From the NCBI GenBank assembly GCA_009695095.1, contig SIBQ01000011.1, forward strand, positions 1-64,000: 64,000 bases of DNA. The letters run 5' to 3'. Source of the stretch: Lacunisphaera sp. (GTDB taxonomy: Bacteria > Verrucomicrobiota > Verrucomicrobiia > Opitutales > Opitutaceae). Made by a program: the position numbers and the translations under genes. Positions 20,273 through 26,180 of this stretch are shown piece after piece; the first letter of the stretch is position 1; every line of letters starts with the position of its first letter. The notes below the pieces were generated by a model. The model did no database searches and was not told where the DNA came from. It worked only from the letters and a program-made list of their open reading frames with translations.

Positions 20273-20305
20273 TAAAACAAAAGAGCCGCCCGTGGGGGGC
20301 GGCTC
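20273..20305 (-). terminator. Attenuator terminator upstream of aroF
   Basis: On the minus strand GAGCCGCC (plus 20298-20305) pairs with GGCGGCTC (plus 20283-20290), an eight-base G/C-rich stem followed by TTTTGTTTT. It lies between the leader peptide stop and the aroF start, and its 5' arm can pair alternatively with the leader segment at 20351-20358. Confidence 0.85.
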
Positions 20306-20331
20306 CTTTGCAAATTGGTTCTGGGGATGGG

Positions 20332-20421
20332 TCAGAATTTGCGTGAGGACAAGCCGCCTCCGGTTTGCGGGGTAAAGTAACCCGCAAAGCCAAAGTAAAA
20401 GTAGGCGGCAAAACGATTCAT
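20332..20421 (-). CDS. Phe/Tyr-rich leader peptide of the aroF-pheA attenuator
   Basis: A 29-residue peptide starting MNRFAAYFYFGFAGYF and ending SSRKF. Eight of its first 16 residues are Phe or Tyr (positions 4, 7, 8, 9, 10, 12, 15, 16), and a ninth aromatic residue is the last one. Such clustering is what leader peptides of Phe/Tyr-controlled operons show (for example E. coli pheL). Its ATG overlaps the stop of the upstream membrane protein gene (ATGA), so ribosomes may be handed on. The stop is 26 bases before the terminator stem. Its likely role is sensing, by ribosome stalling, with no function for the peptide product. Confidence 0.8.
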   Translation of the reverse strand: MNRFAAYFYFGFAGYFTPQTGGGLSSRKF

Positions 20422-20984
20422 CGGGCGCCAGTGGTGACCGGCCCGGGCCCGGCTGTCAATCCTGCAGCGGACCGGGGCGAAAACCAGCGCACCGCCAGCG
20501 CGATGGGCAGGCCGACACAGAAGAGGTGGATGAAAAACTGGGGCAATCCGAGCGCGGGCGGCGGCGGACGCACATACCCGGTGAGGTAAAGTAACTTCAG
20601 CTCAATCATCAGCGGCAACACGCCGCAGGTCATGAAGAAATAGACCCCGGCGCCGTAGACCAAGCCGGCGGGCACGCCGCCCCAGCGGAGCAGGATCGGG
20701 AAGCGCCGGCTCAACCCGTAGAAAATCACCGTGACCGTGAACGCCACGCTGAAGTGCATCGCCAGCCCAAGCGCGGCACTGGCCAGCCCGCCCTTAAAGG
20801 TGGCCGGACCAAGCAACGCGCCGGCCACGCCTTGGAGCAGCAGAAATGGCGTTCGACCGGCCTGGATGTAGGCACTGATGAATGCGGCGCTGATATCCAT
20901 GACCCCGCAAATCAACCAGCCCCACAGGATGCCCCGGGGCAGCCGAAATTTTTCGGGCACAGTGTTTGTCGTGACAGTTTTCAT
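20418..20984 (-). CDS. Hypothetical membrane protein
   Basis: 188 residues with about four hydrophobic helices (LPRGILWGWLICGVMDISAAF, MHFSVAFTVTVIFYGLS, GLVYGAGVYFFMTCGVLPLMI, FFIHLFCVGLPIALAV). The ATG at 20984 overlaps the stop of the upstream FAD oxidoreductase, and its own stop overlaps the leader-peptide ATG, so it is the middle of a coupled chain. Starting further upstream would only add residues from the overlapping gene. Function unknown. Confidence 0.75.
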   Translation of the reverse strand: MKTVTTNTVPEKFRLPRGILWGWLICGVMDISAAFISAYIQAGRTPFLLLQGVAGALLGPATFKGGLASAALGLAMHFSVAFTVTVIFYGLSRRFPILLRWGGVPAGLVYGAGVYFFMTCGVLPLMIELKLLYLTGYVRPPPPALGLPQFFIHLFCVGLPIALAVRWFSPRSAAGLTAGPGPVTTGAR

Positions 20985-25112: not shown

Positions 25113-26180
25113 ATGCGTCAGCCGACTTCCGACCTCCGCATCCGCTCCGCCCGCCCGTTGCTTTCGCCCGCGATCCTCGAGGAGGATCTGCCGCTCCCCG
25201 AGTCCGGCGCCGCGCTCGTGCACGGCGCACGGCGCGCCATCGGCGAGATTCTTGCCGGCCGGGATCGCCGCCTGCTGGCGATTGTCGGCCCGTGTTCCAT
25301 CCATGACCCGGCGGCGGCGCTGGACTATGCGCACCAGCTCAAGGCGGTGGCTGACCGGCTGGCCGGCGACCTGCTGGTCGTCATGCGCGTCTATTTTGAA
25401 AAGCCCCGCACGACCGTGGGCTGGAAGGGCCTGATCAACGACCCGCACCTCGACGGCAGTTTCCAGGTCAACACCGGCCTGCGCCTCGCCCGCCAGCTGA
25501 TGCTCGATATCAACGTTGTGGGCCTGCCCATCGGCACCGAGTTTCTCGATACCATACTCGGCCAGTACTACGCCGACCTCGTCTCGTGGGCCGCCATCGG
25601 CGCGCGCACCACCGAGAGCCAGATCCACCGCGAACTCGCCCCCGGCCTTTCCATGTCGGTCGGCTTCAAGAACCGCACCGACGGCGACCTGCAGGTGGCG
25701 GTGGACGCGATCGTGTCGGCGCGGCACCCGCATTGTTTCCCCTCTCTCACCCGCGAGGGGGCGCCGGCCGTCCTCGCCACCACGGGCAATCCCGAGGGAC
25801 ACCTCGTGTTGCGCGGCGGTAGCCGCACCGGCCCGAATTACGACCGTAAATCTGTCCACCAGGCGGTGGCCCTCCTGAAGAAATCCAGCTTGTTTCCCGT
25901 CGTGCTGGTGGACTGCACCCATGGCAACAGCGGCAAGCAGCACGGCGAACAGTCGCAGGTGGCCGCAGCCATCGCCACGCAGGTGGCAGCCGGCGAACGC
26001 GCCATCATCGGCTTCATGCTCGAAAGCAATCTGGTGGGCGGCGCGCAAAAGCATGAGCCCGGCCGGCCGCTCACGCCTGGGCAGAGCATCACGGATGCGT
26101 GCCTGTCCTTCGGCGAAACTGTGCCAGTGCTCGAGAAACTAGCCCGCGCCGCGGTGACCCGTCGTCAGGCAAAAGCCTGA
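25113..26180 (+). CDS. aroG: DAHP synthase, type I-alpha (AroG-like)
   Basis: 355 residues. Motifs IVGPCSIHD, MRVYFEKPRTTVGWKGLINDP, GTEFLDTILGQYYADLVSW, IGARTTESQIHREL and GFKNRTDGDLQVAVDA are typical of the E. coli AroF/G/H group, which are feedback-inhibited by aromatic amino acids. Together with the I-beta enzyme at 19204 this gives two unrelated control types for the entry to the shikimate pathway. Divergent from the RlmM-like gene; followed 12 bases later by glycerate kinase. Confidence 0.93.
   Translation: MRQPTSDLRIRSARPLLSPAILEEDLPLPESGAALVHGARRAIGEILAGRDRRLLAIVGPCSIHDPAAALDYAHQLKAVADRLAGDLLVVMRVYFEKPRTTVGWKGLINDPHLDGSFQVNTGLRLARQLMLDINVVGLPIGTEFLDTILGQYYADLVSWAAIGARTTESQIHRELAPGLSMSVGFKNRTDGDLQVAVDAIVSARHPHCFPSLTREGAPAVLATTGNPEGHLVLRGGSRTGPNYDRKSVHQAVALLKKSSLFPVVLVDCTHGNSGKQHGEQSQVAAAIATQVAAGERAIIGFMLESNLVGGAQKHEPGRPLTPGQSITDACLSFGETVPVLEKLARAAVTRRQAKA

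Follow-up and report, generated by a model that had tools for sequence, protein, structure and literature searches.

A very likely phenylalanine-sensing transcription attenuator with a predicted leaderless leader peptide upstream of aroF in Opitutaceae

Described leader-peptide attenuators and the aroF locus

Descriptions of ribosome-mediated attenuators come mainly from Proteobacteria, Actinobacteria, and Firmicutes. In the pheL-pheA system of Escherichia coli, a leader coding for phenylalanine, competing hairpins, and a terminator are located before the gene for chorismate mutase-prephenate dehydratase. In Corynebacterium glutamicum, aroF is preceded by the leader aroR, which is reportedly leaderless. 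According to excerpts from a review (PMC11802643), the E. coli attenuator is controlled by Phe-tRNA, and aroR contains the sequence Phe-Tyr-Phe and gives read-through under phenylalanine limitation, with the availability of tyrosine having no effect. Excerpts from PMC7298713 state that in Sinorhizobium meliloti the leader-peptide ATG forms the 5' end of the attenuator RNA rnTrpL. Leaderless leader peptides upstream of amino-acid genes (leuL, trpL, ilvL, and others) are described for Streptomyces lividans (Actinobacteria) in excerpts from PMC8079986, and the 8 leaders named there include none for phenylalanine or aroF and several without a clear terminator.

The locus described here was identified in the window, by which we mean the whole stretch of 64,000 nucleotides of Lacunisphaera sp. 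DNA that was analyzed. The aroF gene (20259-19204, minus strand) encodes a DAHP synthase that belongs to the type I family and has a ferredoxin-like domain at its N terminus. The protein matched PF00793 and PF18152 above cut-off, and its NCBIfam scores were sub-cut-off, with 274 bits for the best model, PRK08673 (cut-off 335), and 221 bits for TIGR01361 (cut-off 268). The pheA gene (19207-18131, minus strand), the first 4 nt of which coincide with the end of aroF, encodes a chorismate mutase-prephenate dehydratase-ACT protein (PRK11898 with 264 bits, cut-off 219; PF01817, PF00800, and PF01842). The DNA upstream of aroF is very likely to represent a ribosome-mediated transcription attenuator that has its own sigma-70-type promoter and a leaderless or nearly leaderless leader, and that senses Phe-tRNA.

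Like pheL-pheA, the predicted attenuator combines a Phe-coding leader with competing hairpins and a terminator, but the first controlled gene is aroF and the leader is located at the predicted 5' end. It shares with aroR an aromatic leader peptide before a DAHP-synthase gene, although aroR belongs to a different phylum and the likeness drawn here is one of description. As in the excerpted account of rnTrpL, the RNA would start at the leader ATG, which is here a prediction only, whereas rnTrpL is a Trp sensor located before trpE(G) in Alphaproteobacteria. Membership in the Rfam family Phe_leader (RF01859) was rejected; the score was 20.9 bits against a gathering threshold of 55 (E 0.23), the family was not listed at gathering, and 2 unrelated Rfam families slightly outscored it on the same stretch.

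A term search of a broad attenuator survey (PMC2965389) did not find the word Verrucomicrobi, and no paper on attenuation, leaderless, or leader peptides in Verrucomicrobi* was evident from titles and the beginnings of abstracts in the open-licence literature. The type of mechanism is already known; its occurrence in Verrucomicrobiota would be new, no report having been found for this phylum.

The leader peptide and its pairing segments in relatives

Two sets of relatives were compared with the window. For the first set, 57 genomes were searched, 51 of which matched at E ≤ 0.001, and 30 loci were kept; for the second, 80 named loci were kept of 110. Removal of duplicates resulted in 96 distinct aroF loci, and 92 informative rows remained after 4 non-members with less than 400 nt upstream had been set aside. 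Loci were selected as members by a GCCGCC/GGCGGC terminator upstream of aroF, which was present in 31 of the 96 distinct and 31 of the 92 informative loci, while 61 of the 92 informative relatives contained aroF without this attenuator. A leader rich in Phe and Tyr codons was identified in all 30 members with enough upstream DNA, the 31st member, L061, being cut by a contig end. It is from the sequence and from these comparisons that the elements, their conservation, the compensatory pairing, the conservation of the promoter, and the geometry were established. The preliminary description had claimed a complete attenuator of 4 segments before aroF-pheA and had called for a comparison with related Opitutaceae; this comparison supported the anatomy. 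All 30 uncut members contained both the aromatic-rich leader and the terminator, and partner-swap tests supported the stems, which were kept in relatives with compensatory changes.

The leader in the window, MNRFAAYFYFGFAGYFTPQTGGGLSSRKF, is encoded by an open reading frame on the minus strand (20421-20332) with its ATG at 20421, and the 29 amino acids, the length given previously, include 6 Phe and 3 Tyr. Counterparts were present in the 29 other members. The leaders consisted of 23 to 29 codons, with 21 ATG and 9 GTG start codons, and the first bases were [AG]TGA in 26 of the 30. A Shine-Dalgarno site was found in none of them (0/30), which is not specific to the leaders because the aroF starts were also without such a site (0/30). 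Each leader contained 3 to 7 Phe (mean 5.1; 30/30), compared with 0 to 4 Tyr (mean 2.0), the latter being absent in 1 of the 30. It had been suggested that the leader reports both amino acids; the Phe part of this suggestion held, whereas the Tyr part was weakened, and as read from the leader sequences the constant signal is phenylalanine, with tyrosine variable.

In every one of the 30 members, the last Phe or Tyr codon ahead of GGCGGC ended exactly 15 nt from this segment, and the leader stop codon was located 0, 12, or 18 nt beyond GGCGGC. Many of the aromatic codons fall within a predicted hairpin loop, where U-richness could be structural, and TTT accounted for 112 of the 154 Phe codons across the 30 leaders, as might be expected if the frame were not sensed at all and the aromatic codons were a by-product of U-rich loops in an element that acts only as a constitutive terminator or as the gene for a small RNA. 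We consider this very unlikely, since TTT and TTC, as well as TAT and TAC, interchange among the leaders, which argues that the amino acid was kept rather than the base, and since the frame, the start, the stop, and the 15-nt distance from codon to stem were all conserved. It is also at odds with the function of the downstream gene, which makes the precursor of exactly Phe and Tyr, and with the leaders for I/L/V and His that were identified before matching genes in the same genome.

The 152-nt element was predicted to fold at -59.3 kcal/mol, compared with -38.3 kcal/mol (sd 3.7) in 200 shuffles (z -5.6), none of which was as good (0/200). All segments are on the minus strand. Segment 1, GCCGCC (20409-20404), is the outer arm of the 1:2 hairpin, with 88.9% of the cells paired. 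The inner part of this hairpin consists of the 5' arm TTTGCGGG (20388-20381), located within the Phe and Tyr codons, and the 3' arm CCCGCAAA (20371-20364), for which the swap test and the pair counts are those of the 5' arm. Segment 2, the switching segment GGCGGC (20358-20353), is contained in GGCGGCTT (20358-20351). The antiterminator inner stem follows, with the 5' arm GCAAATTCTG (20342-20333) and the 3' arm CAGAACCAATTTGC (CAGA..AATTTGC; 20323-20310), the latter identified by folding and by the swap test. The intrinsic terminator (20305-20274), the 5' arm of which is segment 3, is formed by the stem arms GAGCCGCCC (20305-20297) and GGGCGGCTC (20291-20283), followed by TTTTGTTTT (20282-20274), and 97% of the stem cells were paired in the 30 members. 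The terminator ends 14 bases before the aroF ATG (20259), precisely as the earlier reading had it.

The antiterminator is composed of the GGCGGC/GCCGCC pairing plus the inner stem, and the region that extends from segment 2 to the terminator 5' arm had a mean z of -3.75 over the 30 members, in all of which the antiterminator was predicted to overlap this arm and to be mutually exclusive with the terminator. A switching segment with 2 alternative partners had been proposed before; the pairing was borne out, and the antiterminator turned out to be longer than claimed, because GCAAATTCTG and CAGA..AATTTGC had been missed. The inner stem occurred in 3 versions (GCAAA/TTTGC, GCGAA/TTCGC, and GCATAAACTG/CAGATTTAAGC) that do not align column by column. 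Counting pairs in a single alignment register was therefore discarded for this stem, and partner-swap tests were used instead. The mean energy was -8.5 kcal/mol with the own partner and -4.75 kcal/mol with swapped partners, and the own partner was better than the mean of partners from other versions in 30 of 30 members, although in a few rows up to one third of the single swaps outdid the own partner.

For the inner 1:2 hairpin, the corresponding values were -10.6 for the own and -7.6 for the swapped partners; the own partner was better in 29 of 30 members, and in 27 of 30 with wider arms. In this stem, 75.8% of the cells were paired and 3 of the 8 pairs had changes on both sides. A cruder first swap test with arms of half a leader spoke against the pairing, the own partner being better in only 7 of 30 members. 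The 1:2 segment as a whole had a mean z of -2.1, with values of about zero in 5 members (L052, L059, L069, L080, and L085). When the 1:2 and terminator stems were examined in alignment A2, 24 cells were changed on both sides compared with 9.7 in shuffles (0/500 as high), and the covariation score was 0.156 compared with 0.129 (0/500). The number of further pair types in A2 was not raised (18 compared with 19.6 in shuffles, 491 of 500 being at least as high), and the 6 pairs changed on both sides were matched by most slid controls. The pair counts back the 1:2 hairpin on most, but not all, measures.

The promoter and the genes upstream

The hexamer TTGACA, the -35 element of the attenuator's own promoter, was located on the minus strand at 20459-20454 and was invariant in 30 of 30 members; the preliminary description had overlooked this promoter. 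It was followed by 17 variable positions and then by CA (C in 30 and A in 29 of 30), with a T six positions past the C in 25 of 30; in the window, this -10 region is CACCACT (20436-20430, minus strand; TTGACA-N17-CAnnnnT), with column counts of C30 A29 C25 ... T25 out of 30. The distance from TTGACA to the leader start codon was 30 to 32 nt in 29 of the 30 members and 35 nt in L080. The information content was 2.0 bits per column in TTGACA, compared with near-random values of 0.55 and 0.34 in the spacer and the flank, and the mean pairwise identity of the spacer was 41% beside the invariant hexamer. Among 28,116 ATG or GTG sites in the 80 named loci, 23 of which carry the leader, 28 had a TTGACA at 30 to 32 nt.

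The covariance model R1, built for this element with only the terminator paired and without the promoter, retrieved 17 further leaders, after L008 and L018, which were already known, and L133, which equals L025, had been left out. All 17, some of which are close relatives of each other, contained TTGACA at a distance of 30 to 32 nt. A generic scan with the sigma-70 consensus did not call a promoter here, and the -10 sequence bears little resemblance to TATAAT, so that its assignment rests on conservation. This is probably a sigma-70-type promoter whose start site is no more than about 3 nt away from the leader start codon, which would make the leader leaderless or nearly so. From the promoter spacing, transcription in the window is predicted to start at 20424-20421 (minus strand), 0 to 3 nt from the leader ATG.

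It was also noted that TTGACA is scarce in general; the 80 named loci (L032 to L111), which amount to 1.02 Mb with both strands counted, contained 70 sites. The window contained 7 copies compared with a mean of 16.0 in shuffles, and 100 of 100 shuffles had at least 7. Selection against -35 hexamers at stray positions may account for this scarcity.

A gene for a membrane protein (20984-20418, minus strand; the start is a prediction) is located immediately upstream, with its last codons on the promoter, outside the conserved unit. Its TGA (20420-20418) overlaps the leader ATG as ATGA (20421-20418), and a gene for an FAD oxidoreductase ends at 20981, overlapping the predicted start of the membrane gene by 4 nt in an operon-like packing. 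From the stop-start overlap, the preliminary description had placed the attenuator inside an operon with the membrane gene, with ribosomes arriving by ATGA coupling. The overlap itself is real, but an operon-internal element fed by coupling is unlikely, given that the element has its own promoter at a fixed spacing to the leader, the TTGACA of which was present in all 30 members and in all 17 further leaders. The membrane gene, in contrast, matched none of the 109 other loci by tblastn (flanks of about 1.5 to 3 kb) and no family in Pfam or NCBIfam. In 11 of the 30 members, a homolog of the FAD oxidoreductase gene ended 5 to 82 nt ahead of TTGACA, and the membrane gene was absent from the interval; other members had different DNA upstream. 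Since 26 of the 30 leaders begin with [AG]TGA, a reading frame that runs into the promoter may readily end there, and the overlap arises easily. Coupling is therefore neither needed nor conserved. Transcriptional read-through from upstream may add to the expression of aroF.

Proposed switch, other leaders, and distribution

In the mechanism that we favor, a leader-peptide attenuator with its own promoter, RNA polymerase would start no more than about 3 nt from the leader start codon, and the ribosome would read the leader on an RNA that is leaderless or nearly so. With Phe-tRNA, and secondarily Tyr-tRNA, charged, the ribosome would reach the leader stop and cover the inner antiterminator arm; segment 2 would then pair with segment 1 or stay free, and the GC-rich terminator would halt transcription 14 nt before aroF. 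A shortage of Phe-tRNA would stall the ribosome on the aromatic codons, where it would cover segment 1, so that GGCGGC and GCAAATTCTG could pair with CAGA..AATTTGC and GAGCCGCC, the terminator would be blocked, and aroF-pheA would be transcribed. The 15-nt gap and the position of the stop codon would fit a stalled ribosome that leaves segment 2 just free and a ribosome at the stop that covers the inner arm. The start site, the stalling, the termination, and the response to phenylalanine are predicted features of the model.

T-boxes likewise switch amino-acid genes by means of a terminator and an antiterminator, and the element could in principle be a T-box or another leader that binds tRNA or protein rather than a translated attenuator. 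We regard this as extremely improbable, as no Rfam T-box was matched either at gathering or when the element was searched with a lenient limit of E 10, no conserved specifier loop or T-box sequence was seen by eye in alignment A1, and the leader forms an open reading frame that contains regulatory codons.

Two other leaders were identified in the same genome. One is an I/L/V-rich leader, MNLSLALVALITAVLALLATDPNTHGRLTEASAS, before ilvD, with ilvB beyond it (G000:C32:21733-21892, L162); it is associated with a terminator and an antiterminator in alternative pairing, and with TTGACA-N17-CAGCTT located 36 nt upstream of the ATG. Leaders rich in I/L/V were also present before ilvD in other genomes of the family (L142 to L148, L154 to L157, and L159). 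The other is a His leader, MVLNHHHHHVN, before hisG, with hisD further on (G000:C39, L175, reverse strand, about 293-430). Behind it lies the terminator CCCCGGC..GCCGGGG-TTTT, and the match of this leader to the Rfam His_leader was sub-threshold (26.9 compared with 49 bits, E 0.51). The ilvD and hisG genes were named by eye from the sequence, and ilvB and hisD by family models. A Trp leader was not found in the approximately 400 nt of contig DNA ahead of trpE in this genome.

The locking of the promoter and the start codon at 30 to 32 nt suggests that the sensing ribosome loads on leaderless RNA. On balance, it seems fairly likely that Opitutaceae attenuate several pathways via ribosomes (aroF by Phe/Tyr, ilvD-ilvB by Ile/Leu/Val, and hisG by His), that the ribosome sensing phenylalanine loads on leaderless RNA, and that the 15-nt geometry keeps Phe, and not Tyr, as the signal. 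A conserved full example, together with the I/L/V and His leaders, would imply tight coupling of transcription and translation in Verrucomicrobiota, for which the attenuator would also provide ready-made regulatory parts. The predicted leaderless start combined with the 15-nt stall geometry (30/30) would make a clean natural test of leaderless RNAs in attenuation.

The gene for pheA was located after aroF in 21 of the 31 attenuator loci compared with 0 of 61 other loci for which at least 800 nt were available after aroF. In the other 10 of the 31 loci, the attenuator preceded an aroF behind which pheA was not found, which indicates that the constant target is aroF and that the association is wider than aroF-pheA. 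In an AroF tree inferred with a quick method, the 21 loci with both attenuator and pheA formed a single clade (SH-aLRT 98), in which 21 of 21 loci had the attenuator. The 10 other attenuator loci belonged to a second clade, mixed with loci without it, and the presence of the attenuator on the tree needs at least 6 changes.

A search with R1 in 200 Opitutaceae genomes resulted in 45 genomes with a match at E < 5e-8 that was not located before ilvD, of which 35 were inspected and 10 were counted by score. At E ≤ 0.01, matches were obtained in 141 of the 200 genomes, but most of these were partial matches to the terminator end and were not counted. The matches in G060 and G128 were weaker, yet both genomes contained a Phe-rich leader before aroF. 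A distant DNA search for the element in plasmids gave no match. Among 384 genomes of the class, 19 matched at E ≤ 1e-5. The matches outside the family (G378, G403, and G543) were rejected because they resemble ordinary terminators that follow other genes. Within this sample, the element was found only in Opitutaceae, in a search so strict that it also drops divergent copies within the family, such as that in G060.

Two minor observations concern the surroundings of aroF. A gene for a second DAHP synthase, of the AroFGH type of E. coli (TIGR00034, 465 bits), was identified in the window about 5 kb from aroF on the opposite strand (25113-26180, plus strand). The gap between the terminator and aroF was 133 to 371 nt in 8 loci (L003, L004, L005, L007, L008, L012, L015, and L040), compared with 20 nt in the window, and several of these long gaps contained, as judged by eye, similar phrases that look like repeats, such as ATCCGTGAAATCCGTGGT.
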